Below are positions 33,215-53,024 of a stretch of 64,000 bases of DNA, in pieces. A program made the translations under genes and the position numbers. The first letter of the stretch is position 1, and each line of letters begins with the position of its first letter. Source of the stretch: Fervidobacterium pennivorans (lineage in GTDB: Bacteria; Thermotogota; Thermotogae; Thermotogales; Fervidobacteriaceae); NCBI RefSeq assembly GCF_001644665.1, contig NZ_CP011393.1:890001-954000 (forward strand). The letters are read 5' to 3'. The notes under the pieces were generated by a model. The model had not been told where the DNA came from and searched no databases. It was given only the letters and a program-made list of their open reading frames with translations.

Positions 33215-34132
33215 ATGAAAAAGATAGTCGTGATAATTCTTGCTGTCTTGGTATTCGTTAACATTTTTGCTGGTTCTGTTCAACTCAACGGAAGAGTAGA
33301 ATTTAACTACACAATAAATCCCGATTTCGAACTTGTCGTTTCAAATTGGTTCCCAGGTGATAATGCAGCGTATCTCGTTGTTACATCTGGTGGAACAGTG
33401 CTCGTTGTTGATGTAAAATATGCAGCACCGAATATAACAAGTATGTACGTCAACGAACTTTTCATACCATGGAAGGTAAACAACAACCTTACGGTGTTCT
33501 TTGGCTACAGAAATGTTGCAGATTACGATAGCTTTATGGGAAGTGGTGGTTCTTTTAAATGGGGGTATAACGGAACAGGAATTTTGTGGTACAAAAGCAC
33601 ACTGTCTTTCATCTACACATTCGGTGGTTTTATGTTTGATGTCGGAACAAATTTCGGGAATCCTTTAACGTTTGCACTTCTTATGAAAACTAACAATTTT
33701 TACCCACTTGGTTTAACGCTAAACGTTGTAGGAAAAGCTGATTTTTCCGAAGGTATGGTCGGTGCAAGGCTCACCTATCCACTAAGACCATTTACACTTT
33801 ACTTAGCTGGCGGATACGATTATGTTAATGCAACAATCAAAGGTCTATTATTCGGTTTGGTTGGGGAAGTTGCAGGGACCAGCATTTCTGCAGAACTGGA
33901 TTTGACAAATACTATTACAGATCCTATGGAAATCAAGTTGGCTGGCGATGTTAATTACAAACTTGAGGGTTATAAGGTAGGAGTTAGCGGAGATTATAAC
34001 TTCAAAACGGGTGATTTATCTTTGGAACCATACATTGCAACGAAATTGGGAAATGCTGATGGCAAATTGCTTGTACGCTTTGAAGAAGATGGATACAAAT
34101 ACACAAAATTCACTGTAGGCTTCAATTTCTGA
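33215..34132 (+). CDS. Predicted outer-envelope beta-barrel protein
   Basis: A 305-residue protein with a signal peptide (residues 1-19, ending NIFAGS). The mature part is a succession of amphipathic strands such as YKVGVSGDYNFKTGDLSL and ends in the aromatic KFTVGFNF. This is the build of a porin-like barrel. No known family is recognised. It lies between the tandem-CBM lipoprotein and binding protein copy 2. It could therefore let oligosaccharides through the toga (inference). Confidence 0.68.
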   Translation: MKKIVVIILAVLVFVNIFAGSVQLNGRVEFNYTINPDFELVVSNWFPGDNAAYLVVTSGGTVLVVDVKYAAPNITSMYVNELFIPWKVNNNLTVFFGYRNVADYDSFMGSGGSFKWGYNGTGILWYKSTLSFIYTFGGFMFDVGTNFGNPLTFALLMKTNNFYPLGLTLNVVGKADFSEGMVGARLTYPLRPFTLYLAGGYDYVNATIKGLLFGLVGEVAGTSISAELDLTNTITDPMEIKLAGDVNYKLEGYKVGVSGDYNFKTGDLSLEPYIATKLGNADGKLLVRFEEDGYKYTKFTVGFNF

Positions 34133-34166
34133 CTGAATTCAAATACATCGGCTGGAGGTGTTTTTG

Positions 34167-35555
34167 ATGCGTAAGTTTGTATTGGCTTTGCTTTTGATTT
34201 TCTTTGTGGTCTCCGCGTTTGCTAAAGCTACCATAACGGTATCTGTTTGGAGCTGGAATGTGGATAGATATAAAAAACTCATCGCGGAATTTAACAAATA
34301 CTATCCGGATATTGAAGTAAAACTTGTCGTAAACCAACCGGAAGTAAATAGCTTTTTGACCGCACGTGTGTCTGCAAAGCAAGCTCTCCCAGATGTTATT
34401 GCCGAATCATGGGAACCTCTATCATACCCTGTTTCTCAGGGTTGGGTTTACCCATTAGATGAATTTCTTAAAGATGACCCGGACTATAGATATGTCCCAG
34501 AAAGTGCGAAAAACGCATTCAAGTATCGTGGGAAAACTTACGCCCTTCCGGAAAGATTGCATTTTGAATGTATAGTTCTGAATCTTGATTTACTCAAGAA
34601 GTTGAATTTACAACTTCCAAAATACGAAGAATGGACCGTCGACCTTTTCAAGCAGTACGCAAGAAGAGCCACAACTAAGGAATATTCTGGTATTAATCAG
34701 CTGTGGGAATTCGATACGTTTATGGCAGCAGTTCTCAGTAAACATACAACATTCTGGAGCTTTGACCCAGTGAAGTGGGAATTTGACCTTGTAAATGGTG
34801 GGTGGATACCAGCTATTAAGTTGCAAAAAGAGCTCAAATCAATACCTGGACTGGTCTCCGATGACCTTATAAATCAAGAATTGAGGAACCAAGGTCAACT
34901 CGATGATTATCAGAAAAAGTTTGGAAAAGACGCTGACGCTTTCAGAGAATCAAAAGTACTTATGGGATTTGAGGCAACTTACGATTGGAGCTGGCTACAT
35001 ACAGTGTCTTGGAACTTCGATTACTATCCTCTCCCATTCGATCCAAAGATAGGTATCAGACTGCCTGTTCATATCAACTATACGTTTGTAAGTGCAACAA
35101 CAAAATATCCAAAAGAAGCGTTCCTCTTTGCGAAATTTCTTTCGTACGACCCAAGAGGTGTTATTGCGAGATTGAAATTGTATGAGTCTGAAGGCGTGGA
35201 AAGAGGAAGATTGGTTGACTGGTTTATTCCTGCAACGATGCACCCAGATGTGGTAAAATACTTTGAAACATTGAAGATACCAAACGGTATCAAATGGATG
35301 CTCAAAAACCTTGATAAAAGCGTTAGGGTCGATATGTGGAAAATAGTTCCAGGATGGTTCGAAGCAATATGGGACGTTATATTCCCAGTTAACGAAAAAA
35401 TCAGACGTGGAGAAGTAACACCAGAAGCAGTTGCCGCTGAAACTCAAGAAAAGGCAAACAAAGTAATAAAAGAAAATTGGGCAATTTTCGAAAAGAAATT
35501 AATCGATGCGGAAAGGAAATTCCCACAATTGAGAAAGCAAATTGAAGGAAAATGA
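34167..35555 (+). CDS. Oligosaccharide-binding protein, copy 2
   Basis: A 462-residue extracellular binding protein, paralogous to the one at 29685-31073 and of the same length. The signal peptide ends near AFA and the mature part starts TITVSVWSWNVDRYKK. Many blocks are shared, and most differences are conservative, so an old duplication with kept function or a shifted ligand is likely. It also lacks an adjacent permease pair of its own; the giant binding protein follows instead. ATG 34167 follows CTGGAGGTG, and the longer GTG frame is rejected. Confidence 0.88.
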   Translation: MRKFVLALLLIFFVVSAFAKATITVSVWSWNVDRYKKLIAEFNKYYPDIEVKLVVNQPEVNSFLTARVSAKQALPDVIAESWEPLSYPVSQGWVYPLDEFLKDDPDYRYVPESAKNAFKYRGKTYALPERLHFECIVLNLDLLKKLNLQLPKYEEWTVDLFKQYARRATTKEYSGINQLWEFDTFMAAVLSKHTTFWSFDPVKWEFDLVNGGWIPAIKLQKELKSIPGLVSDDLINQELRNQGQLDDYQKKFGKDADAFRESKVLMGFEATYDWSWLHTVSWNFDYYPLPFDPKIGIRLPVHINYTFVSATTKYPKEAFLFAKFLSYDPRGVIARLKLYESEGVERGRLVDWFIPATMHPDVVKYFETLKIPNGIKWMLKNLDKSVRVDMWKIVPGWFEAIWDVIFPVNEKIRRGEVTPEAVAAETQEKANKVIKENWAIFEKKLIDAERKFPQLRKQIEGK

Positions 35556-35712: not shown

Positions 35713-38661
35713 GTGAAAAAAGTTCTGATTTGGTCTGGGATAATAGCTTTATTTATTATTGCTGCTATGTTGGTGCTTTATTTTTCAGGTAGAAGCGTCT
35801 ATACGAAGTTCGTTGCTTCAATAGCCGAGCTGGTAGAGAAATCCACAAAGGCATCGAAGGATTTTGTTTCTATGTCTAGTTTAGAAGCTTATGAAAAGCT
35901 TTTTGAAATGAGATTTTCAGATTTAAGTAATTACGCGGTTTTTAATTTGGATTTCAAAAAGCCTGTTATTCTTGGAAACGATGAGGCAACAACGCTGATT
36001 CTTTCTGTTAATAAAGATGGTGAGTACGCTGTTGTGCTGAAATACAGATACAGTACTAACACAACAAGTAACGGAACTTTAGAGTTTGAGATCAATGGAA
36101 AAACTTACCTGGGAATTTTGGATAACTTCACATACTATGATTTCAATGAAAAGGTTTACGATAGATATGGTAACGAAATAACACCCGAGCAAAAGTCTTT
36201 TGAAAAAACTTACACGGCATTTATCAAAGATGCAAGTAGAATCTCCAAAAGTCCTCTCTTATTGAAACTAAACACAGGTGATAACCCTATCTCAATTAAA
36301 AATACCCGTTCACCAATAATTATAGAGGAACTTTATTTAGTTCCAAAATATTACCTTTTCAGTAGCAAGTCTTACGCGGAATACAAAAATTCAGAGTCTA
36401 ATATTCCAAGCAACGATAACGTTCTAGTTATTGAGGCTGAAAATCTGTCATTCAAGTCTGACCCATTAATATCTGTAACCAACGAGCAAACCGCTTTGGT
36501 AACACCTTACGAAATTTTGAAAAAGAGGATTAACATCATCGATGAGAATACTTTTAAGCAATCTGGTCAAGAAATTTTTTGGACTTTCTATATAGACACC
36601 CCTGGTTATTACAAAATAGCATTCAGATACAAACAATCTATGAATAGAGGCATCCCAGTTTTCAGAAGAATTTCTGTAGATGGCAAAGTCCCGTTCAAAG
36701 AATTTGAGGATTACCCATTCCCCTACACAGGCTACAGCTGGAAAGACCACGTGTTAATGAGCGAAGAGAATAAACCTTTCGAAGTTTATCTTGATAAGGG
36801 ACTACATATCCTCTCGCTGGAAGTTACCACAGGAATATATGAAGGAACTATCCGATTTCTGCAAGAAAGCGTGAAAAAATTGCAAGAGATAGGCTTAGAG
36901 ATGCGAAAGCTCGTTGGCAGCAATTTAGACCCAAACCGAACATGGAACATAGAAAAATACATGCCAAATGCTATACCAGATTTGAAAAGTATCTCGCAGA
37001 GCCTGAGAACCCAACATGAAAAGCTGGTTAAAATTGTAGGCAAACAGGGACTACCATCGATTGCGGACATGCTCGTATGTGCTGGAATAATAGACAACAC
37101 CCTCAGGAAACCAGAAAAATTGCCATTCTATATAGATGTCCTTAGTGAGGGAGCTTCTTCCATTGCTCAAAGACTTTCTGAACTTTCTATGAGATTAAAA
37201 GAACAGCCAATGGGTATCGACAAGATCTACGTCTTTCAAGGAAGTCTTGAAAAGTTCGCTTATCCGAAATCCACGTTCCTAATAACTGCTTACGAGGAAC
37301 TTCAAAAATTATGGTTATCCTTGTTCAACAAAAATGAAGCTTATTCTATATATGAAAAGGTCGACGAAACAAGTTTGAGAGTTTGGGTAAACAGGCCCGT
37401 ACAGTATGTTGAAACGTTGCAGTATTTAACAGATAGTGACTTCACAAGAAAAACAGGTATTAAAGTAATTTTTTCCATCATGCCCAATGAACAGAAACTC
37501 GTTTTAGCAAGTGCTGCAAACGCTGTTCCAGACGTTGCTATGAGTATCAGCAACTGGATACCTTTTGAACTTGCAATAAGGAATGCTCTTTTCCCACTTT
37601 CCTATTTCCCAGACTTCTTCAATTTTGTAGAGAAGAACATTAACATTGAAACACTCTTGCCAATGATTATTGATGATAAAATTTATGGAATAACGGAAAC
37701 ACAAAACTTCTACGTACTTTTCTACCGAAAAGACATTATCGAGAAACTGGGTATACCAATACCGGACACTTGGGACGATGTAAAGAAGATACTCCCTGAG
37801 CTCCAAAGACGAGGAATGAATTTCTATATCCCGATGTGTGAACAAACAACAAAGTATTTCAATACTACTGGTCCTTTCTTCTTCCAAAATAAAGCAAGGC
37901 TTTATACAAGAGATGGTATGAAAACAGCTATAAACGAAGAGAATTCAGTAAAGGCGTTTGAATTAATGACTGAACTTTTCGCAATTTACGGAATTCCAGA
38001 ACAAGTTGCAAGTTTTTACAACTCGTTTAGATACGGCCGTATCCCCATTGGTGTTGGTGACTTTGGATTGTATGTAACTCTATTAAACGCTGCAGATGAA
38101 ATTTATGGGCTGTGGGATATAGCTCCTTCACCAGGAGTTAAGGACGAGAGCGGACAAGTTTTAAGATACCAAGTTGCAGGAGATAGAGCTATTGTTATCT
38201 TCGCAAATTCAAATAAAAAGGAAAAGGCTTGGGAATTCATCAAGTGGTGGATGTCTAAAGACACGCAAGTCAAATTTGCAAGGATGATGGTCAACAGATA
38301 CGGTCCGACTTACCTTTGGAATACAGCCAATATAGAAGCATTCAAGGAACTCGATTTTATAGATGAAAAACACAAGAGAGTCATTCTCGAACAATGGAGA
38401 TGGATTAGAGAAATTCAAAGGCATCCGGGTGGTTACATGGTTGAAAGGGAAGTAAGCAACATATGGAACAGCGTTGTCATTGAAGGTAAACCACTTAGAA
38501 CATCAATCGACAGGTCCGTGATACTCATAAACAGAGAACTGGAAAGGAAACTTACAGAGTTTGGTTACATAGTCAATGGAAAGAAGGTCAAGGATTACAA
38601 GATGTATGAAAGTATGGAAGAGTTCTTAAAGACTGTAGTAAATCGAGGTGAAACAGAATGA
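35713..38661 (+). CDS. Giant membrane-anchored binding protein with CBM-like region
   Basis: A 982-residue protein, about twice the usual size for a binding protein. An N-terminal anchor (residues 5-26) is followed by about 530 residues outside the membrane. Part of this (about 235-380) has the CBM6/35-like pattern [11 protein letters not shown] ... YKIAFRY ... ISVDGK ... [10 protein letters not shown] classical solute-binding domain follows from about 560 to 930 ([62 protein letters not shown]). It starts with GTG. It overlaps the next permease by four bases, so it is the dedicated receptor of that transporter. Confidence 0.82.
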
Positions 38662-39551
38662 GAATAAGTTCGAAAAAAGACCGTGGACACTGGCTTTTGT
38701 TGTCACCATATTTGGTTTTATTTATTGTATTCATAGCACTACCAGTTGCTGTCGCGATATACCTTTCATTTACCTATTTCAACGCAATTGAAAAACCCAA
38801 GTGGATAGGTATACAAAACTACATCACGCTCATCACACGGGACACGCTCTTTATGCAAAAGGTTTTACCAAACACTATAAAATACGCCTTGATTGTTGGT
38901 GTTGGTGGATACATTCTTTCATTTATATTAGCCTGGCTTGTGGCTCAACTTACAAGGATACCAAGAACAATATTCGCTTTGATAATTTATTCTCCTTCTC
39001 TAACAGCGGGTGTCACGATGTCAGTAATTTGGCGGGTACTTTTCAACGGTGACCAACAGGGCTACTTGAATGCTCTCTTACTCAAGCTTGGAATTATAGA
39101 CAAGCCAATACAGTGGTTACAATCTCCACAACATTTGATGGATATTATGATTCTCGTTTCGCTCTGGAGTAGTATGGGGGTAGGGTTCTTAGCAATGCTT
39201 GCAGGTATATTAAATGTCGATGAACAACTTTACGAAGCAGCATACATAGATGGTATAAAGAACAGATTACAGGAAATTATATACGTTACTATACCTGCCA
39301 TGAAACCACAAATGCTTTTCGGAGCGGTGATGTCAATAGTGAATACATTTACTTCTGCAGGCATTGGAGTTGCGCTCTCTGGCTCAAATCCAACCCCACA
39401 ATACGCCGGGCAATTAATCGTTAACCACATCGAAGATTACGGTTTTCTAAGGTATGAAATGGGATACGCGGCAGCTCTCTCCGTTGTGTTGCTTTTAATT
39501 ATCTGGTTCTTCTCAAGAATCGCGTGGCGCTTATTTGGAGAGCGCGACTAA
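38658..39551 (+). CDS. ABC permease, MalF type (pair A)
   Basis: A 297-residue inner-membrane protein with six helices and an EAA loop (YEAAYIDGI near residue 193). The ATG overlaps the stop of the giant binding protein (ATGA), showing tight coupling. The partner is the MalG-type gene 35 bases downstream. The N-terminus is basic ([11 protein letters not shown]), placing it inside the cell. Confidence 0.9.
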
Positions 39552-39586: not shown

Positions 39587-40459
39587 ATGGCAAAGTTCAC
39601 TACAAAAACGAATCCAAGATATTTCCATAAAAGTCAGCTGAAATTCTATTTTATCTTGGCGCCCATAGCTATTTTTATGATGTTGCCCATAATTTTCATC
39701 TTCTCACAAGCGTTCAAGCCAGTTGACGAATTGTTCCTCTATCCTCCAAGATTTTTCGTTAGAAGACCAACACTTGCTAACTTCTATGAATTATTCCAAA
39801 TCACCCGGGCTTCAACGATACCTGTATCTAGGTATCTAATGAATAGCATATTGACCGCTTTTTTCACAGTGCTTTTTACAATAATCATCTCTGTCTTTGC
39901 AGGATATGCACTCTCCAAGAAGCAATTCAAAGCCAAGAATTTACTCTTTACCATAAATAATCTTGCGCTCATGTTTGTTCCCATTGCTGTTATTATTCCA
40001 AGGTATTTAATAGTTCAAAAGCTTGGGCTTATAGATACGTTTATAATCAACATTCTCTCACTTCTGGCAATGCCAATTGGTGTCTTTCTTGTAAAGCAGT
40101 TTATAGACCAAATTCCTGATGCGCTTATCGATGCGGCGCTTGTTGACGGAGCAAACGATTTCCATATAATCTTCAATATAATAATGCCACTCTTGAAACC
40201 AGCTATATCAACAGTAGGCATTTTGGCATTTCAAGTTGCTTGGAACAGTGCAGAAGCGTCAACTTACTACATAAACAACGAGAATCTAAAAACGTTCGCA
40301 TTCTATGTTTCCAACCTTACCCAAACAACGGGTAACACGGTGGCGGGTCAAGGAATAGCTGCTGCAGCTGGTCTAATAATGTTCGTTCCAAATTTGATAC
40401 TTTTCATAATTATGCAATCAAGAGTTATGAATACGATGGCATACAGTGGCTTGAAATAA
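39587..40459 (+). CDS. ABC permease, MalG type (pair A)
   Basis: A 290-residue permease with six helices, the EAA loop (DAALVDGA near residue 183) and the C-terminal MAYSGLK typical of MalG-like partners. A GGGGGAGAAAG ribosome site precedes the ATG. With the previous gene it forms the first of two permease pairs in this operon. Confidence 0.9.
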
Positions 40460-40497
40460 TGGATACTCAAAGTTTTTTGTTGGGTGGTGTGAAAATC

Positions 40498-42537
40498 GTG
40501 CGAAGCAAGAACAAAAAGAACAAATCAGGGTTGAAAAACGCTACCAAACTTTTCGGAGTTTTGCTTGTACTTTTCATGTTATACAATCAACTCTTTGCCG
40601 TTAACAGTGCATTTCTCACTTACACAATTTCAGGTAAAAACGAGTGGAAAATAACTCAAGATGCATATGTTGTGAGTGAGGTACTCTTCAAGGATTTAGA
40701 CCTCTACTACCCCGAAGATATCTTCATAAAGGACAACAAAATGTACATTGCCGATTCAGGCAATGCGAGAATTGTCGTTTTCGATATGGTAACCAGGGAA
40801 GCAACTTACGTGGGCGATATGTCTTTGTTTCAACCGACAGGAGTATTTGTTGATGACACATACATTTACGTAGCTGACCCTGGCACATCAGAAATTGTGA
40901 TATTTGATAAGTTGGGTAAGGAAATAAGAAGGTTGGGTAGACCTACGAATCCTCTGTTCGGAGAGACTGCGAATTTTAAACCAAAAAAGCTTGTTGTTGA
41001 TAAGCGAGGGAATTTCTACATTGTAAGCGAGGGAACATTCGAAGGTGTTATACAGCTAGACCAAAATGGTGAGTTTCTTGGTTACTTTGGCGCAAATACC
41101 GTTGGAATAACATTTTTGGACAAATTCATAGACATATTCTACACCAAGGAACAAAAAGAGAAGTTCCTAAATAGGATTCCAAAACCTTATACCAATATCA
41201 CAATAGATACCAAGGGACTTATCTATACAGTAACCCAGAAAGAGCATGGGAGTGCTATTAAAAAGCATAACACTATAGGTTTAAATATACTTCCTCCATC
41301 TAAAGAAGGTAGGATGGTGGACGAACCAAACTTCATAGATATTGCCGTAGATACACATGGAAGGATATTCGCATTAACTGAGACAGGACTCATTTACGAA
41401 TATGATTCTGAAGGTAACCTGTTAGTTTCGTTCGGTGGTCGTGCTATTGCTACGGAAAGAAACGGATTGTTTACCGTAGCATCTGCAATTGCCGTAGATG
41501 ACGAAGGTAAGGTTTACGTTCTTGACAAAGAGCGAGGACTTGTCCACGTCTTTAATCCTACTCAATATATTCACACCCTCCATAAAGCACTCGAACTTTA
41601 TTCTCAGGGGAAATATCTTGAGAGCAAAAAACTCTGGGAAGAAGTTATGATATACGATGGTTATTCCAAAATCGCTCATTACGGACTTGGAAAAGCATAT
41701 TTCCAAGAAGGAAATTACAGAGCTGCAGCAGAGGAATTTAAAAAGGCTTATGCAAAAAGGGATTATTCAGATGCTTATTGGGAGATTAGAAACGAATTCT
41801 TGCAAAAGAATGCAGGGAGCGTATTACTGGCGTTTATAATACTAATAGTTCTTTTCGTGCTACTGGATGAGTTGTCAAAACGTGGGGTAATCAAAAAAAG
41901 AGCCACAATTAAGTCTAAGCTATTAAGTGATATACTCTACATTAAAAACATATTGAGACATCCACTTGACACTTTCTATTACATCCAGAGAAGAAAGCAT
42001 GGGTCTGTGCTTTCAGCCACCATCATTTATCTGCTCTTCTTCTTGGTAATACAATTTGATTATTTTGGCAGAAGCTTCATCTTTAACTTAAACGTCCAAG
42101 ATAGGTCCGTTGGATTTGTTCTACTTGCCAGTATTGCTCCAACAATGCTGTGGGTTTTTGCGAACTACTTAGTTAGCTCTATTAACGACGGTCGTGGAAC
42201 ATTGAGGGACATTTATATATTCACTGCCTACAGCTTTGCCCCTTACATCCTTTTCCAGCCGTTTGTAATAATGCTTACTTACGTACTCACTTACAACGAG
42301 GCGTTCATAGTATCTTTTGCCTCAATAATTCTCATAGCCTGGTCTGCTGTTCTACTTTTCACTGGTGTCAAAGAAGTCCATGATTACGGTATTAGAGATA
42401 CGGTAAAAAGCATACTACTTACTTTTGTTTGGATATTTGTAATTATACTCGTCTACTCAATAGTTTACATGCTTTGGGACCAACTCGTTCAAACTGTCTA
42501 CGCGATTGTCCAGGAGGTGCTCTACCGTGCAAGATAA
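40498..42537 (+). CDS. NHL beta-propeller - TPR - Yip1-like membrane protein
   Basis: About 679 residues in an unusual order. An N-terminal membrane segment exports the next part. NHL-type propeller repeats follow at about 45-350, with recurring YPEDIFIKDNKMYIADSGN and AIAVDDEGKVYVLDKERG patterns. A TPR-like pair sits at about 360-425 (LELYSQGKYLESKKLWEE, YGLGKAYFQEGNYRAAAEEF). After another membrane segment, a C-terminal block of about five helices (490-679) resembles the YIP1 family. The role is unknown; it may sense or scaffold the transporter. The start is GTG 40498 after GGTGGTG, or else ATG 40459, which overlaps the previous stop. Confidence 0.72.
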   Translation: MRSKNKKNKSGLKNATKLFGVLLVLFMLYNQLFAVNSAFLTYTISGKNEWKITQDAYVVSEVLFKDLDLYYPEDIFIKDNKMYIADSGNARIVVFDMVTREATYVGDMSLFQPTGVFVDDTYIYVADPGTSEIVIFDKLGKEIRRLGRPTNPLFGETANFKPKKLVVDKRGNFYIVSEGTFEGVIQLDQNGEFLGYFGANTVGITFLDKFIDIFYTKEQKEKFLNRIPKPYTNITIDTKGLIYTVTQKEHGSAIKKHNTIGLNILPPSKEGRMVDEPNFIDIAVDTHGRIFALTETGLIYEYDSEGNLLVSFGGRAIATERNGLFTVASAIAVDDEGKVYVLDKERGLVHVFNPTQYIHTLHKALELYSQGKYLESKKLWEEVMIYDGYSKIAHYGLGKAYFQEGNYRAAAEEFKKAYAKRDYSDAYWEIRNEFLQKNAGSVLLAFIILIVLFVLLDELSKRGVIKKRATIKSKLLSDILYIKNILRHPLDTFYYIQRRKHGSVLSATIIYLLFFLVIQFDYFGRSFIFNLNVQDRSVGFVLLASIAPTMLWVFANYLVSSINDGRGTLRDIYIFTAYSFAPYILFQPFVIMLTYVLTYNEAFIVSFASIILIAWSAVLLFTGVKEVHDYGIRDTVKSILLTFVWIFVIILVYSIVYMLWDQLVQTVYAIVQEVLYRAR

Positions 42538-44884
42538 ACAATACAAAAGATTCAAGAATGTTTTCAGGAGAGATAAATCGTTTCTATCAACAATCGTCCT
42601 TGTTATTTTAGTCGTGTTCTTCCGTCCTCTTTTTGCACAAACAATCGGAAATGATTATCTTTCAAACAGGTTTACAAGACCTGAAGTAACCGCACTCGTC
42701 AAATCACCGTTTACACTTGAAGGATATGAAAAGATAGCTGAGAGTAGATATTTGGAACTATGGATGGATTTAACAGCTACTTCTGTTCGGGTTGTTGACA
42801 AAAGGTCCGGATACATATGGGGAGATGTACTAGAAACGACAGACGCTTACAACGAGATGAACCCTACGTACCAACTTATAGCAAAGTCTCTTGTGCTTTT
42901 GGAATATTTTGATGAACGTGGTATATCAAATGTGATAGGCTCTGCAGACGAAAATGTTAAAAAGCATTGGAAAAGAATCGACAACGGAATAGTTTATTCC
43001 CTGTATTTTGAGTCACTTGAGATAGGCTTCGATGTACGTATAACTCTCAAGGATGATACTGTAAAATTCGAGTTGCCCCAAAACACTATAAAGGAAGGAA
43101 AGAAATTTACGATAGCGTCCGTAATGTTTACACCTTTCTTAGGGAGCACAATAGCTGACGAAATCAACGGATATGCATTCGTCCCAGATGGCCCAGGTGC
43201 TCTGATAAGGTTCTCAAAACCAGCCCATTATCTAAACTGGTTTGAAAAAAGGGTTTACGGTAAGGACTACGCTATAGAAAACTTGGTAACCGTCAATGAC
43301 TTGAGAGCAAGAAGACCAAATGACTTCTTAAGAGAAGAGCCAACGGCATTTATCCCAGTATTTGGAATTGTTCATGGCGTAAATCAAAACGCTCTCTTTG
43401 GAGTTATTACTTCTGGACAAGAATATAGCGCTATAGTTTCGTATCCAAGTGGTATTTTAAGTAAATATAACTGGACGTCTGCAAAATTCATCTACAGACA
43501 GAAATACCTCCAACCGACAACAAGAAGTGGTGCTGGAATACAGGTGGCTCAAAAAACCCGGAATAAGTTCGATGCGGTTCTTGAGATTTCTTTCCTCACA
43601 GGTTCAACGGCAAACTATGTAGGTATGGCTAAGTACTATAGAGAAAAGTTTTCAAATGAATTATTCGGGAACAAAAATGTGTCCACTACACAACTCAACT
43701 CAACAATAGTTGAAGATATACCCCTTTACGTAAGCATCATTGCCTCGGACATTGAAAAGATGTTGATAGGTCATAAGGTTATAGCTATCTCTTCTACAGA
43801 GCAAATTAAGCAAATCCTTTACGAACTAACGAGCAAGGGTATCAACAAGATCGTACTTTTGATAGAAGGCTGGCAAGAAGGGGGAATCCACGGGAACAAA
43901 GTAGGAAAGTTTGGATTGGAAAAGAAAGTTGGTGATTTCAAGGAACTTTTGAGGCATATTGTTGATTTCAACACAAAGAACAAATCCAACGGTAAAAGAG
44001 TCGAACTCTTTTTTGTTGACAACGTGACAAGGGTAACCGAAAAACAACTGAACCTCAGAAAAGAAGTTGGTTTGAACCTTTCGCAATCCATAATCTCTGA
44101 AGAAAGGGATAACAAAGACCTTTGGCTGTACAAGAGCTACTATGTAAGAATAGACCTCGCCTCGAGATATCTTTTGATGCGTGCATCAAAACTTTCGCAG
44201 CTTGGTTTTAAAAATTTCGCAGTTAAAGAATTTGCGAACAAACTCTACGGTAATCTCAAGATAGGCTCGGAAATATACCGTTCGGAAGCTAAAAGAATTG
44301 TCGAGCAAACGTTGAACGAGGTAGCCTCAAAAACGGATAATGTAATCCTATTCGAACCAAACGACTATGCATGGAAGTATTCCACAACTATTGGGGCTGT
44401 TCCGATGAACGCCAGTCAGTATCTTTTTGAAACGGATACCGTTCCTTTCCTACAAATTGTATTAAGTGGTAGATTAAATTACTTCACACCATATATGAAC
44501 AATGGGTTCTTCTCAAAGATGGATGTTCTGAAAGCCATAGATTACGGTGCGTATCCTTCGTTCTTAGTATCTTGGCTTGATAACGCATCTTTGAAAGACA
44601 CACCGTTGTGGGATTACCCATCAACTCGGTACGAGGATTGGAAAAACAAAATGGTGGAAATATATAATACAATCAATAGTGCTCTCAAATATGTAAAAGG
44701 TTCAACTATAACAGATCGCATAGTGATAACGCCTGGAGTGGTGAAAGTAAGTTATAGTAACGGGTATGAAATATACATCAATTACACGAACAAAGAATTT
44801 AAAGACGGTCTAGTGGTTGTACCCGCTGAATCATTCAAGGTTGTTAAAGCTAACAATCCTACAAATGGAGTTGATTCCAAATGA
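42527..44884 (+). CDS. DUF5696-like exported protein, possible glycosidase-type fold
   Basis: A 785-residue protein with an N-terminal signal or anchor (about 17-38). From memory it resembles DUF5696 proteins that accompany YIP1 and sugar-ABC genes in Firmicutes. A beta-rich N-terminal part (about 60-400, with FVPDGPGALIRF) precedes a region with barrel-like alternation (about 400-700: INKIVLLIEGW, KRVELFFVDNV, NVILFEPNDYAW, PFLQIVLSGR), and then a small beta C-terminus. Such an order recalls large glycosidases, but no catalytic pair can be named. GTG 42527 follows AGGAGGTG and overlaps the previous gene by 11 bases. Confidence 0.72.
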   Translation: MQDKQYKRFKNVFRRDKSFLSTIVLVILVVFFRPLFAQTIGNDYLSNRFTRPEVTALVKSPFTLEGYEKIAESRYLELWMDLTATSVRVVDKRSGYIWGDVLETTDAYNEMNPTYQLIAKSLVLLEYFDERGISNVIGSADENVKKHWKRIDNGIVYSLYFESLEIGFDVRITLKDDTVKFELPQNTIKEGKKFTIASVMFTPFLGSTIADEINGYAFVPDGPGALIRFSKPAHYLNWFEKRVYGKDYAIENLVTVNDLRARRPNDFLREEPTAFIPVFGIVHGVNQNALFGVITSGQEYSAIVSYPSGILSKYNWTSAKFIYRQKYLQPTTRSGAGIQVAQKTRNKFDAVLEISFLTGSTANYVGMAKYYREKFSNELFGNKNVSTTQLNSTIVEDIPLYVSIIASDIEKMLIGHKVIAISSTEQIKQILYELTSKGINKIVLLIEGWQEGGIHGNKVGKFGLEKKVGDFKELLRHIVDFNTKNKSNGKRVELFFVDNVTRVTEKQLNLRKEVGLNLSQSIISEERDNKDLWLYKSYYVRIDLASRYLLMRASKLSQLGFKNFAVKEFANKLYGNLKIGSEIYRSEAKRIVEQTLNEVASKTDNVILFEPNDYAWKYSTTIGAVPMNASQYLFETDTVPFLQIVLSGRLNYFTPYMNNGFFSKMDVLKAIDYGAYPSFLVSWLDNASLKDTPLWDYPSTRYEDWKNKMVEIYNTINSALKYVKGSTITDRIVITPGVVKVSYSNGYEIYINYTNKEFKDGLVVVPAESFKVVKANNPTNGVDSK

Positions 44885-45732
44885 AGAGAAGCACAAGAAG
44901 AGCACTTGCTGGTTACATGTACACATTGCCCTGGATAATAGGCTTCGCTGTTTTCACAGCTTATCCGTTCTTTTACTCACTCTACTTGAGCTTCTTTAAC
45001 GTCAATTTTACAGTTGATGGAATTGAAGCTACATTTGTTGGATGGAAGTACTACATCTACGCCTTCAGAACAGACCCAGCGTTCCCGATAAATTTCTGGA
45101 ACACGATAATCAATATCGTGTTATCCACGCCTTTAATCATCATATTCTCACTGATAGTTGCAATACTACTCAATAGAAAACTTGTAGCGAGGGCATTCTT
45201 TAGACTGCTTTACTTCTTGCCAGTCGTCATTGTAAGTGGTCCTGTTGTGGCTGAGCTTGTCGCAAACAACGCGGCAAGTATAGTTGACCCGAGAAGGTAC
45301 TTCATATACAGATTCTTCCAAATGATACCGAACACGATAAGCTATCCGTTTTTATACATGTTTAATAACTTGGTGTTGATTCTCTGGTTCTCAGGCGTAC
45401 AGATTATATTCTTCCTCGCAGGGTTACAGAAGATAAGCAACAGCATATACGAGGCTGCTCAGATAGATGGAGCAAACGACTGGGTTATCTTTTGGAAGAT
45501 AACACTACCCCTTATAAAACCATTTGTCTTGGTGAACACGATTTATACCATTGTTGACCTTGCTTCATTCGCAAACAACGCAGTTAATACAAGTATAACT
45601 CAACATATGTTTGACATAGACAAGCCGTACTCATACTCCGCTGCCTTATCTTGGATATACTTTGCAGCAGTTATGCTGATTCTTGGTATCGCGTATCTGT
45701 TGTTACGCGAAAGGAGGAAGACAAGGATATGA
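44881..45732 (+). CDS. ABC permease, MalF type (pair B)
   Basis: A 283-residue permease with six helices and the EAA loop (YEAAQIDGA near residue 195). Its ATG overlaps the stop of the DUF5696-like gene (ATGA), and its own stop overlaps the next start. It is clearly different in sequence from pair A, so it is not a recent copy. Confidence 0.9.
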   Translation: MKRSTRRALAGYMYTLPWIIGFAVFTAYPFFYSLYLSFFNVNFTVDGIEATFVGWKYYIYAFRTDPAFPINFWNTIINIVLSTPLIIIFSLIVAILLNRKLVARAFFRLLYFLPVVIVSGPVVAELVANNAASIVDPRRYFIYRFFQMIPNTISYPFLYMFNNLVLILWFSGVQIIFFLAGLQKISNSIYEAAQIDGANDWVIFWKITLPLIKPFVLVNTIYTIVDLASFANNAVNTSITQHMFDIDKPYSYSAALSWIYFAAVMLILGIAYLLLRERRKTRI

Positions 45733-46658
45733 AAATGTCAAAGAATAAAGAAAAGAAATTCCGCGTTTCTTATTACAAGACATTCAAAGAGCCTGCGACG
45801 AAAACCATAATATATGTTGTTTTAATAGGCATTGGTTATGCTTACCTTTACCCATTGCTATACATGATTACTTCATCCTTTATGAGTGTCGAAGATTTGG
45901 TCAATCCAACGGTTGTTTGGATACCGACTAAACTTACTCTTGACAATTTCGTTAGGGCTTGGAAAGTATTGGAAATGCCCAAGGCATTGTGGAACAGTGT
46001 TTATACGTCAGTTATACCTGCACTAGCACAGAGTTTGATAACAGCCCTCATTGCATATGGTCTTTCGCGTTTTGAATTTCCACTCAAAAGATTCTGGATT
46101 GTTTTAATGCTTGCGACATTTTTGATACCGACGCAAGTTACTTTGGTTACCAAATACGTATTGTTCAGCACGCTGAGGTTGACTGATAGTATCTTCGCAA
46201 CGTTCTTGCCAGCGATTTTTGGACAGGGTATTAGAAGTGCTATCTTCATACTTCTTTATCTCAACTTCTTCAACATGCTACCAAAAGCGTTCGATGAGGC
46301 AGCTGAGATTGATGGTGCTAATACATTCCAAATCTTTTACAAAATCATACTTCCACTTTCTTTGCCTGCAATCGTGACAACGTTTATTTTCTCATTGGTT
46401 TGGTATTGGAATGAAACTCTGTTGTCAGGCCTTTTGCTTGGAAATAAGATTAAAACTCTCCCATTGGAACTCAGGGACTTCGTTGTGAGATACGCTGTCA
46501 TGTTTCCAACCGCCGATGGTAGCGCAGCAAATAGAATCAATGAGGGTATAAGAATGGCTGCGACTATGATAACAATTCTTCCACTGTTGATAACTTATTT
46601 GTTCCTCCAAAGGCAGTTCGTAGAAAGTCTTGAGAGAACGGGAATCACCGGTGAATAA
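45729..46658 (+). CDS. ABC permease, MalG type (pair B)
   Basis: A 309-residue permease with six helices, the EAA loop (DEAAEIDGA near residue 195) and a C-terminal ERTGITG. ATG 45729 lies after AGGAGG and overlaps the previous stop by four bases. A longer frame from 45651 lies fully inside the previous gene and is rejected. Pair B has no binding protein of its own beside it. It might use copy 1 or copy 2, or share the giant receptor. Confidence 0.9.
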   Translation: MKMSKNKEKKFRVSYYKTFKEPATKTIIYVVLIGIGYAYLYPLLYMITSSFMSVEDLVNPTVVWIPTKLTLDNFVRAWKVLEMPKALWNSVYTSVIPALAQSLITALIAYGLSRFEFPLKRFWIVLMLATFLIPTQVTLVTKYVLFSTLRLTDSIFATFLPAIFGQGIRSAIFILLYLNFFNMLPKAFDEAAEIDGANTFQIFYKIILPLSLPAIVTTFIFSLVWYWNETLLSGLLLGNKIKTLPLELRDFVVRYAVMFPTADGSAANRINEGIRMAATMITILPLLITYLFLQRQFVESLERTGITGE

Positions 46659-46694
46659 AGATAAAACGAAAAAGTAAGAAGGGAGATGATTATT

Positions 46695-48839
46695 GTGGAG
46701 TTCGATATTGAAAGGGTAATTTCTGAAATGACAATTGATGAAAAGATAAGCCTTTTGGTTGGTGCAGGTGTGCTTTGGTTACCTGATAATCCTGCTCCAA
46801 GGGTTAAAGGTGAGGCTGGTGAAACAAGACCCATAGAAAGGCTCGGTATCCCAGGTATGGTGCTTGCCGACGGACCGGCTGGTTTAAGGATAGACCCTGA
46901 ACGTGAAAATGATGAGAATAAATACCATGCAACAGCATTTCCCGTTGAGACTATGCTTGCTTCCACTTGGAACAGAAATCTGCTTAGAAAAGTTGGAGAA
47001 GCAATGGGAGAAGAAGTTAAAGAGTACGGTGTAGATATACTTTTAGCACCGGCAATTAACATCCACAGAAATCCTCTGTGCGGAAGAAACTTTGAATACT
47101 ATTCTGAAGACCCTCTATTAACGGGCGAAATGGCTGCGAGTTTTGTTGAAGGCGTTCAATCCCAAGGTGTTGGCGCCTGTTTAAAACATTTTGTGGTAAA
47201 CGAGCAAGAAACAAACAGGATGACTGTTGACACCATCGTTTCCAATCGTGCTTTGCGAGAGATATACCTGAAACCGTTTGAAATAGCTATTAAAAAGGCA
47301 AAACCGTGGACTGTGATGAGCTCTTACAATAAACTAAACGGTAAATATACATCCCAAAACAAATGGCTTTTAAAAGATGTGCTCCGTGACGAGTGGGGAT
47401 TTGATGGATTAGTGATGACTGATTGGTTCGCAGGTGATAACGCAGCTGAGCAAATCAAATCTTGGAACGATTTGTTAATGCCAGGAAATACGTATCAAAT
47501 TTTTAAACATAGAAGACCAGAAATCGAGGAAATTAAAGAAGCTTACGAGCGTGGAGAAATTACCGATGAAATGTTAAATGAGCGGGTAAGAACCATTTTA
47601 AAGGTGCTTGTTAAGACCCCTTCATTCAAAGGATACAAGTATTCAAACAAACCAAACCTCGATGAACATGCGAAAGTTTCATACGAAGCCGGATGTGAGG
47701 GTGTTGTTTTGCTAAAGAATGAAAATGTTTTGCCACTCTCACCAAATACAAAAATTGCACTCTTCGGAACAGGGCAAATTGAAACGATACGAGGTGGAAC
47801 AGGTAGCGGGGAGACCCACCCAAGATACACCATAAACTTCTTAGATGGTGCGATTGAAAAAGGGTTGAGAGTTGACATGGAACTGGCAGAATTTTACAGA
47901 AAAAAAGTCTCGGATTTTAGAGCCACGGATTATGTTGTAACTAAGGGTCAATGGGGTGAAGATATCATACCCAGGCTTCCTCAAGATTTCCTCAGCAAAG
48001 AAGATATTGAAAAATATGCTTCAAGAAACGATGTTGGGATATTCATCATCACAAGAATATCAGGAGAGGGTGTTGACAGAAAACTCGAAAAGGGTGACTT
48101 CTATCTTACGGATGATGAACTTAGTATAATTTCGAAACTTTCAACCACGTTCAGAAATCAGGGAAAGAAGTTCGTAGTCGTTCTAAATATAGGTTCTCCT
48201 ATCGAAGTGGAAAGCTGGAAAAATCTTTGTGATGCCATACTATTGGTTTGGCAACCAGGTCAGGAGGCAGGAAGAATCTTTGCGGATGTGATAAGTGGAA
48301 AAGTGAATCCGTCCGGAAAGCTTCCAACAACATTCCCAAAAAGATACGAAGATGTTCCATCGAGGTCGTTCCCGGGTGAACCAAAAGATAATCCGCAAGT
48401 AGTAGTTTACGACGAGGACATCTACGTCGGATACAGGTATTACGATACATTTAGAGTAGAGCCTGCTTTCGAATTTGGATTCGGACTTTCATATACAACA
48501 TTCGAATACTCTAATCTAAAGCTATACAGAGACGGTGGGGATATTGTTGTAACTTTCGAGATTAAAAACACAGGTAACATGGCTGGAAAAGAAGTTGCAC
48601 AAATTTATGTGAGGGCCCCAAGAGGAAAAATAGACAAGCCTTACCAAGAATTGAAGGGTTTTGAAAAGACGAAGTTGCTTGAACCAGGAGAAACTCAGAA
48701 AATGGAAATTAGAGTTCCCGTCTCAAGCCTTGCAAGTTTTAATGGTCATTGCTGGATAGTTGAAAAGGGGGAATACGAAATAAGAGTTGGTGCATCGTCA
48801 AGAGATATCAGATTGGTAGGTAAGTATGTACTAGACTAA
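46695..48839 (+). CDS. Glycoside hydrolase family 3 beta-glucosidase
   Basis: A 714-residue GH3 enzyme without a signal peptide, so cytoplasmic. The N-terminal barrel has ADGPAGLR, the CLKHFVVNEQE loop and the nucleophile Asp243 in VMTDWF. The alpha/beta sandwich and a C-terminal Fn3-like domain (about 600-714) follow, as in thermophilic beta-glucosidases. It would trim beta-linked glucose from imported oligosaccharides. The start is GTG 46695, six bases after AGGGAGATG. ATG 46686 lies within that site. Confidence 0.92.
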   Translation: MEFDIERVISEMTIDEKISLLVGAGVLWLPDNPAPRVKGEAGETRPIERLGIPGMVLADGPAGLRIDPERENDENKYHATAFPVETMLASTWNRNLLRKVGEAMGEEVKEYGVDILLAPAINIHRNPLCGRNFEYYSEDPLLTGEMAASFVEGVQSQGVGACLKHFVVNEQETNRMTVDTIVSNRALREIYLKPFEIAIKKAKPWTVMSSYNKLNGKYTSQNKWLLKDVLRDEWGFDGLVMTDWFAGDNAAEQIKSWNDLLMPGNTYQIFKHRRPEIEEIKEAYERGEITDEMLNERVRTILKVLVKTPSFKGYKYSNKPNLDEHAKVSYEAGCEGVVLLKNENVLPLSPNTKIALFGTGQIETIRGGTGSGETHPRYTINFLDGAIEKGLRVDMELAEFYRKKVSDFRATDYVVTKGQWGEDIIPRLPQDFLSKEDIEKYASRNDVGIFIITRISGEGVDRKLEKGDFYLTDDELSIISKLSTTFRNQGKKFVVVLNIGSPIEVESWKNLCDAILLVWQPGQEAGRIFADVISGKVNPSGKLPTTFPKRYEDVPSRSFPGEPKDNPQVVVYDEDIYVGYRYYDTFRVEPAFEFGFGLSYTTFEYSNLKLYRDGGDIVVTFEIKNTGNMAGKEVAQIYVRAPRGKIDKPYQELKGFEKTKLLEPGETQKMEIRVPVSSLASFNGHCWIVEKGEYEIRVGASSRDIRLVGKYVLD

Positions 48840-48869: not shown

Positions 48870-51800
48870 ATGGTAAGATACTACTTCGACGAGAATAAGA
48901 GATTTGTAGTTGAAAACTACAATAACTCAAAACCATTTGCAAGCTTTCTGCCCGGCATAGCTGGTAAGAAAGGGATACCGCTGTGGGTGTTTTACGTTAA
49001 CAGAGCTCAAGCAATCGCGTCTTTTGGAATTGCTCATAAAGATAACCCTATTATGGAATTCCACCCAGCTTTTAGATCTTATCAAGTTATATTCACACAC
49101 GGCTTCAGAACGTTTGTTAAAGATTTGTCTATGGATGCATTCTTTGAGCCTTTTGGAAAAGTGGTTTCCGATAAAGTTGTACAAAGGATGTATATTGCCA
49201 GGAATGAAGTCGAGATAGAAGAAATAAATAATGTATATGGTCTTAAAACAAATGTACTTTACTTCATACTGCCCCAGGAGAAGTTAGGAGCACTTATCAG
49301 AATTGTTAAATTCCAAAACATATCTAACGAAGTAAAACACTTTGAAATTCTCGATGGGCTTGCTGCACTCCTTCCTTATGGAATCAACGATTACGGTTTA
49401 AAGCATGTGGGTAACACGTTAAAGGCTTGGATGGAAGTATATAATTTGGAAAACAAGATGCCAGTATTTAAACTCAGGTCAACGGCAGAAGATGTAGCAG
49501 CTGTTTCCGAATTCAAAGAGGGCAATTTCTACGTTTCGTTCAAGATTCAGTCAGGAAAAAAGGAACTCTTAATGCCATTGGTGGATCCTGACGTTGTTTT
49601 TGGAATGAACACCTCCTATATCGAACCAGATGTTTTCATCGGTTCAAGGTTAGAAAATATAAGGAAAATGAAGCAAATCACATCGAATAGGGTGCCTTGT
49701 GCTTTCTCTCCGACCGAAGTAACACTACAACCCGGCGAAGAATTTTATATTTACACAGTTGTTGGGCATACACCTGATATAAATTTGCTGAACGAATACG
49801 CAGAAAGATTCTCAAGCCAAGAATACCTTGAAAACAAACGAAAAGAGGGTAATAAAATAATCGAAGAGATTGTTAATGATGTATGGACAAAGACTTCTTC
49901 TGATTTATTTGATGAATACACGAAACAAACTTACCTTGACAACATATTAAGGGGCGGCTATCCAGTTGTTCTGCGTGAAGGTAAAGATAGATTGGTCTAT
50001 CATATATACTCGAGGAAACATGGTGATTTAGAAAGGGATTACAACTATTTCGTGTTATTGCCAGAGTATTATTCTTCTGGTAACGCGAATTATAGAGATG
50101 TGAATCAGAACAGAAGAGAGGACGTTGTCTTCCACCCAGAGATAGGAAATTATAACATCCGATTCTTTGTCAACTTGATACAGCCGGATGGTTACAATCC
50201 ACTTGTAATAAACGGTGTCAGATACAGACTGAAACCCGAATGTGGAGGTATAAAAGAGTTCTTAAAAACAGAAATTGAAAATCCGGAGAATGTTGAAAAA
50301 TTGTTTAATTTCCTCAACGCAGGTAATCTAACACCAGGAAAATTGTTAACATTCATTGAAAAGCAAAGTATAGTTCTTAAAAACGACTTCGAGGAGTTTT
50401 TGAGGAATCTTGCAGAGTACCTTGAAGAAGAAGTAGACGCAGTTCACGGCGAAGGTTTTTGGACCGACCATTGGACTTACAACTTGGATCTCATTGAAAG
50501 TTACTTGGCAATTTACCCCGAAACAAAAGAAGAAATTCTTTTTGATGACAAATCCTACACATATTACGATAATGCAGAGTGTGTGCTTCCCAGGTCGAAA
50601 AGATATGTCTTCGTCAATGGAAAGGTAAGACAGTACAATTCTCTCTACCTTGATGAAGAAAAGAAAAGACTCATAGAATCAAGGGATAAATTCAAAAATG
50701 TCGTGAGAACAAATAAAGGAAAAGGTGAAATCTACAAAACAACGCTAATAACGAAACTCGTCAATCTGGCAGCTATAAAATTTGCAACGACAGACCCTGC
50801 GGGCGTTGGTATAGAGATGGAAGCAGGAAAGCCAGGTTGGTACGATGCATTAAACGGATTACCTGGATTATTTGGTTCTTCCGTTGCAGAAAGCTACGAG
50901 CTTCTGCGTTTAATGAATTTCATTATAGAAACATTGAAAGAATACCAACACAGGAAAGTTAACTTGCCAGTCGAAGTTATGGCGTTAATTAACAAAGAAG
51001 CCGAAATCATCGATTGGTACAATGCTTGCAATGATGATGATAAAGATTTCAAATATTGGGAAAAGATGTCCGACCTCAGGGAAACTTACCGTGAAGATGT
51101 AAAGTTTGGATTCTTGGGTGAAGAAGTTGAAATTACGGCAAATGAACTGGCAAACATCCTTGAAAAGTTCAAAGCAAAGTTGAAGTCCGCACTTGACAAA
51201 GCAATTGCCGAAAGCAACGGAATGATGCCAACTTACTATTATTACGAAGTAGAAGAATACGAAATTATCAGCGAAGAGGGTAATCAAAAATTTGTAAAAG
51301 TGCATAAGTTCAGGCAAAAGTCGATGCCATATTTCTTGGAAGGGATGGTTCGAGGATTTAAGGCTTACGGAAACAACAAGGAATTTATCAAGCAAATCCA
51401 CAGAAAAGTCAAGTCATCAGAACTCTATGACAAAAAGTTGAACATGTACAAGGTTAACGCTCCTTTGAAGGAGCAGAGCATAGAAATTGGACGTGCCAAG
51501 GCATTCACACCCGGTTGGTTGGAAAATGAATCAATATGGCTACACATGGAATACAAATACATGTTAGAACTTATAAAGAACGGCCTATACGAAGAGTTCT
51601 ATGAGGATTTCAAGAATGTAATTGTTGCCTTTATGGACCCTGAAGTATACGGAAGAAGTCCTCTGGAGAATTCTTCATTCATAGCAAGTAGTGCTAATCC
51701 TGACGAAAAAATCCACGGAACTGGTTTTGTTGCAAGGTTGAGCGGTGCAAGCGCGGAGTTTTTAAGCATGTGGAGAATAATGTTAGCAGGACAAAAGCCG

Positions 51801-52094
51801 TTTAAGTTCATCAACGGAAAACTCTTCTTGTCTTTTGAACCCATATTACCCGGTTGGTTGTTCGATGAAGAAGGAAAAGTATCGTTCAATTTCCTTGGAA
51901 AAGTAAGGGTAACTTATGTGAATCCAAAGAGGCTTGATACCTTCAAATTCGATATCTCAAAACAAAGAGTAAAGCTAATGACAACAGCGGGTGAGAAAGT
52001 AGAAATTGAGAACCACCTTATCGAAGAACCATATGCAAAGTTTGTCAGAGATGGTAAAATTGAAAGCGTAGAGATAATTTTCCTGTACGAGTAA
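48870..52094 (+). CDS. Inverting beta-glucan phosphorylase, GH161/GH149-like (GH94 relative)
   Basis: A 1074-residue cytoplasmic protein. The N-terminal third is a beta-sandwich as in GH94-type phosphorylases (FHPAFRSYQVIFTHG, IVKFQNISNE). The helical barrel has EGFWTDHWTYNLDLIESYL near residue 530 and KPGWYDALNGLPGLFG near residue 655, which hold the general-acid region. The length and the GLPGLFG block fit GH161 or GH149 beta-1,3-oligoglucan phosphorylases better than the roughly 800-residue GH94. It would release glucose 1-phosphate, saving ATP. Family choice is from memory. A GGAGG site precedes the ATG. Confidence 0.72.
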   Translation: MVRYYFDENKRFVVENYNNSKPFASFLPGIAGKKGIPLWVFYVNRAQAIASFGIAHKDNPIMEFHPAFRSYQVIFTHGFRTFVKDLSMDAFFEPFGKVVSDKVVQRMYIARNEVEIEEINNVYGLKTNVLYFILPQEKLGALIRIVKFQNISNEVKHFEILDGLAALLPYGINDYGLKHVGNTLKAWMEVYNLENKMPVFKLRSTAEDVAAVSEFKEGNFYVSFKIQSGKKELLMPLVDPDVVFGMNTSYIEPDVFIGSRLENIRKMKQITSNRVPCAFSPTEVTLQPGEEFYIYTVVGHTPDINLLNEYAERFSSQEYLENKRKEGNKIIEEIVNDVWTKTSSDLFDEYTKQTYLDNILRGGYPVVLREGKDRLVYHIYSRKHGDLERDYNYFVLLPEYYSSGNANYRDVNQNRREDVVFHPEIGNYNIRFFVNLIQPDGYNPLVINGVRYRLKPECGGIKEFLKTEIENPENVEKLFNFLNAGNLTPGKLLTFIEKQSIVLKNDFEEFLRNLAEYLEEEVDAVHGEGFWTDHWTYNLDLIESYLAIYPETKEEILFDDKSYTYYDNAECVLPRSKRYVFVNGKVRQYNSLYLDEEKKRLIESRDKFKNVVRTNKGKGEIYKTTLITKLVNLAAIKFATTDPAGVGIEMEAGKPGWYDALNGLPGLFGSSVAESYELLRLMNFIIETLKEYQHRKVNLPVEVMALINKEAEIIDWYNACNDDDKDFKYWEKMSDLRETYREDVKFGFLGEEVEITANELANILEKFKAKLKSALDKAIAESNGMMPTYYYYEVEEYEIISEEGNQKFVKVHKFRQKSMPYFLEGMVRGFKAYGNNKEFIKQIHRKVKSSELYDKKLNMYKVNAPLKEQSIEIGRAKAFTPGWLENESIWLHMEYKYMLELIKNGLYEEFYEDFKNVIVAFMDPEVYGRSPLENSSFIASSANPDEKIHGTGFVARLSGASAEFLSMWRIMLAGQKPFKFINGKLFLSFEPILPGWLFDEEGKVSFNFLGKVRVTYVNPKRLDTFKFDISKQRVKLMTTAGEKVEIENHLIEEPYAKFVRDGKIESVEIIFLYE

Positions 52095-52996: not shown

Positions 52997-53024
52997 TTAA
53001 CGATAGATTTCTGAGGTGGTTAGG

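Follow-up and report, generated by a model that had tools for sequence, protein, structure and literature searches.

We analysed a window of 64,000 nucleotides of Fervidobacterium pennivorans (contig NZ_CP011393.1, positions 890,001–954,000 of the forward strand) around a gene whose product is a clear member of DUF5696, a family (PF18952) to which Pfam gives no function. The gene is a 785-codon open frame with a GTG start at window positions 42527–44884 (+), and is the single full DUF5696 gene in the host genome (2.06 Mb, one contig). It lies within a cassette of genes for sugar-binding proteins (SBP1 and SBPbig) and permeases (P1 to P4) of the ATP-binding cassette (ABC) importer type, in the order SBP1, SBPbig, P1, P2, NHL/TPR/YIP1 protein, DUF5696, P3, P4. 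The features are listed below in window coordinates (E, expect value; GH, glycoside hydrolase family; TIM, triosephosphate isomerase; pLDDT, predicted local distance difference test).

34158..35555, + strand: SBP1, stand-alone extracellular sugar-binding protein (PF01547, E 3.5e-15)
35713..38661, + strand: SBPbig, membrane-anchored sugar-binding protein of 982 residues (PF13416/PF01547; AlphaFold2 pLDDT 83)
38658..39551, + strand: permease P1, MalF-like (EAA loop read in the sequence)
39587..40459, + strand: permease P2, MalG-like (intact EAA loop)
40459..42537, + strand: NHL-propeller/TPR/YIP1 membrane protein (YIP1 E 2.7e-17, NHL E 5e-11, TPR_16 E 6e-7)
42512..42517, + strand: Shine-Dalgarno sequence AGGAGG for the DUF5696 GTG, within the upstream gene (read in the sequence)
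42527..44884, + strand: DUF5696 protein with a transmembrane or signal segment, a beta domain, a predicted GH129-like TIM barrel and a small C-terminal beta domain (PF18952, AlphaFold2, Foldseek, hhalign)
44881..45732, + strand: permease P3, MalF-like (PF00528, E 2.6e-7; ATGA overlap with DUF5696; intact EAA loop)
45729..46658, + strand: permease P4, MalG-like (intact EAA loop); its start is probably the ATG that overlaps the P3 stop

The frame of the NHL/TPR/YIP1 protein, which stops at 42537, overlaps the DUF5696 start by 11 bases, and the ATG of P3 at 44881 lies within the DUF5696 stop codon, which ends at 44884, in a 4-base ATGA overlap. Because the gene overlaps both of its neighbours, translational coupling with them is plausible, as an earlier note on this DNA had proposed for the permeases. 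P1 is 26% identical to P3 and P2 is 25% identical to P4, and the four proteins are consistent with two MalF/MalG-like pairs. An EAA coupling loop is present in every permease (in P1 by reading the sequence, in P2–P4 by pattern), which suggests that each pair could couple to an ATPase. The AlphaFold2 model of SBPbig comprises an N-terminal transmembrane segment, beta domains at residues 78–211 and 237–372, a helical region at 374–538 and a sugar-binding-protein domain at 555–976, for which the best Foldseek matches were beta-1,2-glucooligosaccharide- and cycloisomaltooligosaccharide-binding proteins.

The window protein matched PF18952 at residues 146–770, over model positions 2–612 of 612, with 516.5 bits (E 1.3e-154) against a curated cut-off of 25.6 bits. 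In a Pfam scan with E up to 0.1 this was the only match, with none to PF11308 (GH129), and the NCBIfam scan gave no match. A chance open reading frame, a prophage or mobile-element gene, and membership of GH13 were each considered and rejected. The AlphaFold2 model, built from 29 diverse sequences, had a mean pLDDT of 85 and a predicted template modelling score (pTM) of 0.88. It comprises an N-terminal hydrophobic helix (residues 2–31), a large beta domain (68–358), alternating strands and helices that form a TIM barrel (400–720) and the strands of a C-terminal beta domain (728–774), which matches the beta-rich N-terminus, alternating middle and small beta C-terminus that the earlier note had read from the sequence. 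The hydrophobic helix is the one such segment at the N-terminus and could be an anchor or a cleaved signal peptide; it suggests that the protein is placed at the cell surface.

Searches with the model and with the family profile agree on the relatives of this fold. Against the PDB, the top Foldseek match was 5opq/8rzk, a GH129-like 3,6-anhydro-D-galactosidase of Zobellia (E 5e-34, template modelling (TM) score 0.72 of target), followed by the GH129 enzyme NagBb, 5wzn (TM score 0.74 of target, E 3e-27), and then, at lower ranks, by GH101 and thereafter GH36, GH31 and GH97. The overall GH129 layout of beta domain, TIM barrel and C-terminal beta domain is thus shared with both leading structures, and the note's comparison of the middle domain to a barrel is borne out by the prediction. 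A search of viral structures returned weak glycosidase matches only. At the level of sequence, the DUF5696 family profile found 5opq (E 5e-5) and 5wzn (E 8e-4) among PDB sequences, where phmmer with the single protein found nothing; the family profile was required for these matches. By hhalign, the 83 DUF5696 members aligned with Paenibacillales GH129 proteins over 554 columns (98.2%, E 5.8e-14). This full-length alignment was reached after smaller GH129 proteins and further DUF5696 members had been added, as a narrower DUF5696 set, compared with just the large Paenibacillus GH129 proteins, had aligned in no more than the C-terminal 80 residues. In addition, three GH129 genes (G169, G182 and G195) have weak matches to the DUF5696 model, in its C-terminal part. 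The architecture is thereby supported as that of a glycosidase, next to GH129 and GH101 as far as models and profiles can place it.

The Pfam DUF5696 model also matches barrels of the alpha-amylase type (GH13), as seen at loci L002 and L027–L031 and at G079:C4:63242, and some of these matches exceed the cut-off (34.6 versus 25.6 bits). Weak matches at about 297–409 in many Thermotogota were rejected as members, three of them, when translated, reading as alpha-amylase-type (GH13) proteins. We treat the weak matches of GH13-type proteins as a probable distant barrel similarity, and automatic DUF5696 annotation can go wrong on this account.

The slot of the DUF5696 gene is constant. The order SBPbig, permease, permease, NHL/TPR/YIP1, DUF5696, permease, permease was found in nearly every locus examined among Thermotogota, Paenibacillales, Clostridia, Chloroflexota, Erysipelotrichia and Izimaplasma. 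Relatives in the genome contigs were found with a profile of the family alignment; an earlier mixed alignment was too diverse for searching, and a contig scan with the single window protein found none. The window gene order recurs on a Paenibacillus plasmid, on a Butyrivibrio plasmid with NHL and YIP1 as separate genes, and, contig ends and gaps permitting, in loci of Clostridia, Chloroflexota, Erysipelotrichia, Izimaplasma, Thermobacillus and Paenibacillus. SBP1 lies upstream in many loci and was undetected in some, while SBPbig and P1 went undetected at L060. NHL-YIP1 was directly upstream of DUF5696 in 54 of 54 further loci (Thermotogota and Paenibacillales), and P3 directly downstream in all of these except one at a contig edge; the P4 scored downstream in one locus was a shadow frame overlapping P3.

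Co-occurrence followed the same pattern. SBPbig and NHL-YIP1 were present in the same 24 of the 103 Thermotogota genomes, all 24 with DUF5696; the remaining genome with DUF5696 (G027) had only fragments on a small contig, and in none of the 103 was a full-length DUF5696 found without SBPbig and NHL-YIP1. The pairwise distances of the eight cassette proteins across loci correlate at 0.75–0.96, with species phylogeny uncontrolled, which fits inheritance as a unit. DUF5696 is thus genomically linked to the importer cassette.

Additional copies were seen within single genomes. One Paenibacillales genome (G126) carries 11 copies of DUF5696 (L111–L121), every one of them within this cassette. In G067, which has other copies, the cassette at C23:268–7209 is interrupted by in-frame stop codons, TGA in SBPbig and TAA in DUF5696, and is either a decaying paralogue or the product of sequencing errors. 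A second DUF5696/NHL-YIP1 copy in G069 (C1:1740416–1744253) had no SBPbig that could be found, and its NHL portion matches only from residue 154.

The enzymes encoded beside the cassette, in turn, vary. In the window they are followed by a regulator, and the four genes directly downstream of P4 are the following.

46686..48839, + strand: GH3 beta-glucosidase-type enzyme, a cargo-specific neighbour (PF00933, E 3.7e-44)
48870..52094, + strand: GH161 beta-1,3-glucan phosphorylase, a cargo-specific neighbour (PDB 9qqk, E 2.3e-267, full length)
52121..52996, + strand: GH16 enzyme with a signal sequence, a cargo-specific neighbour (PF00722, E 1.7e-28)
53016..54032, + strand: LacI-type regulator (PF00356, E 9.8e-21)

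The description of the region as a glucan locus in the earlier note therefore stands, and the cargo of the window cassette is probably beta-1,3-glucan oligosaccharides (the activity of GH161 is described in PMC8140972). Elsewhere the neighbour is a GH43 enzyme (Butyrivibrio), a GH13 enzyme (Anaerocolumna), a GH31 enzyme (an Oscillospiraceae genome) or, in a Chloroflexota locus, a GH94 enzyme and two PF10091 genes, and the neighbours across the 11 G126 cassettes include GH26, GH38, a GH51-type arabinofuranosidase, GH29, GH35 and a GH16-like gene. Since DUF5696 stays constant while the neighbouring enzymes change, it is unlikely to be a substrate-defining enzyme, or the glucan-specific enzyme of the window locus, and the family is not confined to glucan loci. 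Four loci of Chloroflexota and Erysipelotrichaceae (L043, L048, L050 and L053) have GH94 upstream, and PF10091 'glucoamylase' genes, LacI and a large GH35-like gene downstream (L048 and L050 were covered by the Pfam scan), a content that suggests use of beta-1,2-glucan.

In the GH129 enzyme NagBb, the acid/base partner of the catalytic pair is Glu478. Its Asp435 is a GH129 catalytic residue (PMC5698469). Both residues were placed by alignment. The columns of the pair are invariant in the alignment of Paenibacillales GH129 proteins (D528, E572), but the window protein has neither residue at the mapped positions. The nucleophile Asp column falls on Lys567, where barrel strand 4 ends, and the acid/base Glu column, with the full GH129 set, on Phe609. 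The mapping to Lys567 was stable whenever the window protein led the profile set, and shifted by at most a few residues in clade-only sets. Among the 83 DUF5696 members, column 567 holds Arg (35), Asp (23), Lys (8), Glu (7), Gly (3) and Gln (2), a basic residue thus standing at the nucleophile position in 43 of 83, and column 609 holds Tyr (28), Ser (25), Phe (13), Asp (3), Ala (3) and Thr (3), with Glu in none. Other residues are strongly conserved, namely R585 and Y614 (both 83/83), N612 (80/83) and W449 (75/83). Judged from the alignments, the barrel may bind a sugar yet would no longer cut by the GH129 mechanism, and catalysis appears to have been lost in the window protein.

We regard it as fairly probable that the DUF5696 protein is a pseudo-glycosidase, an extracytoplasmic relative of GH129 and GH101 that has lost the catalytic pair, and that it is tethered to the membrane as a subunit of a composite, apparently undescribed ABC importer of carbohydrates. 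Such an importer would consist of the giant anchored SBPbig, the two permease pairs, the NHL-propeller/TPR/YIP1 protein and the pseudo-glycosidase as a fixed subunit. In the host genome, its energy would probably come from a single MalK-type ATPase encoded elsewhere. At the outer face of the permeases, the barrel would most likely hold or orient either a glycan chain or the binding proteins, and the true enzymes encoded beside the cassette would cut the substrate. More tentatively, and with somewhat less than even confidence, we propose that this composite importer, with a dead GH129-like ectodomain as its glycan-handling ancillary subunit, is widespread. The linkage of the genes is observed; the physical complex, glycan binding, cargo and assignment of the ATPase are what we infer.

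Several observations weigh against this reading. The linkage is one of genes, without proof of a physical complex. The host genome has one PF17912 match to a MalK-type ATPase (G000:C1:971939, outside the window), but this model is limited to ATPases that carry the MalK OB domain, and others could serve; at locus L114, such a gene adjoins the cassette. The acid/base position is mapped less securely than the nucleophile, as it falls on F609, a gap or I622 according to the profile set. The window protein also has Glu568 and Glu610, each one residue off the mapped catalytic positions, Glu610 being found in only 4 of the 83 sequences, the closest relatives of the window protein. Finally, of the conserved Asp and Glu that the earlier note had looked to an alignment for, those of the GH129 pair columns are not conserved, but acidic residues are conserved at columns 637 (D/E in 76/83, 92%) and 672 (82/83, 99%), and these could serve another catalytic arrangement.

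The last point bears on the proposal of the earlier note that the protein is an undescribed surface glycosidase, of which the glycosidase architecture is supported (next to GH129/GH101) and the enzyme activity is not, given that the GH129 catalytic positions map to K567 and F609. As an active enzyme of a new family, it would cut the incoming glycan at the mouth of the transporter by means of an acid pair other than that of GH129. The fold, the secreted or anchored placement, the adjoining glucan genes and the conservation of columns 637 and 672 together with W449, R585, N612 and Y614 all speak for such activity, and acids supplied from unexpected places are known in this fold: the GH129-like enzyme of Zobellia needs an Asp of its partner subunit for activity (PMC5698469). 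Nevertheless, the GH129 catalytic residues are lost or vary at both positions, and the protein stays the same as the cargo enzymes change, and we consider an active glycosidase unlikely. Still less likely, to our minds, is a mixed family in which some clades are active (Chloroflexota and several Clostridia keep the Asp of column 567) and those of Thermotogota and Paenibacillales are pseudoenzymes. Asp or Glu does occupy that column in 30 of 83 members, mostly outside Paenibacillales, but no member, bearers of Asp567 included, has Glu at the acid/base column. A role as assembly or folding factor of the importer or as envelope scaffold, without contact with glycan, would agree with the strict position between the scaffold-like NHL/TPR/YIP1 gene and the second permease pair, but is very improbable in view of the conserved residues of a possible sugar pocket (W449, R585 and Y614).

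The pseudo-glycosidase subunit and its putative importer can be set beside known systems. GH129 (NagBb), the Zobellia enzyme and, more distantly, GH101 have the full-length architecture and profile similarity in common with DUF5696, which differs from GH129 in the conserved equivalents of Asp435 and Glu478 and the PF11308 match that it lacks, and in being encoded within a permease operon. With importers of the CUT1 type (MalEFGK, MsmX-energised), the cassette shares binding proteins, MalF/MalG-type permeases with EAA loops and a separate MalK-type ATPase in the same genome; in contrast to these, one conserved operon encodes two permease pairs, a 980-residue anchored SBPbig, an NHL/TPR/YIP1 protein and a glycosidase-like ectodomain. 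A comparable arrangement exists in animals, where the SLC3 heavy chains rBAT and 4F2hc are single-pass proteins with a glycosidase-fold ectodomain that pair with an amino-acid transporter. As part of the composite-importer proposal, and just as tentatively, DUF5696 might be regarded as a bacterial ABC counterpart of these chains, by analogy and not by homology at this level, as the SLC3 proteins are GH13-like, eukaryotic and not of the ABC type.

To what Pfam records for the family, the analysis adds the importer cassette and the apparent loss of the catalytic pair. The name DUF5696 was not found in a literature search whose coverage left out most subscription journals and preprints, and searches on combinations of YIP1, NHL and ABC and on pseudo-glycosidase transport subunits returned nothing relevant; the novelty of the system is accordingly provisional. 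The proposed reading offers a testable role for a family of unknown function whose members occur in six or more bacterial groups and reach 11 copies in a single sampled Paenibacillales genome, and caution is advised before this fold is annotated as that of an active glycosidase. Should the cassette form a single machine, the usual scheme, in which a carbohydrate ABC importer has one binding protein and a single pair of permeases, would change, and the cargo of each copy could be predicted from the enzyme genes beside it; for such predictions the 11 paralogous G126 cassettes, many of them with different enzyme genes alongside, form a natural series.

One further gene lies directly upstream of SBP1.

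33215..34132, + strand: small secreted strand-rich protein of 305 residues

A Pfam scan of this protein gave no match. It is possibly an outer-sheath barrel or porin that would take part in the same uptake route.

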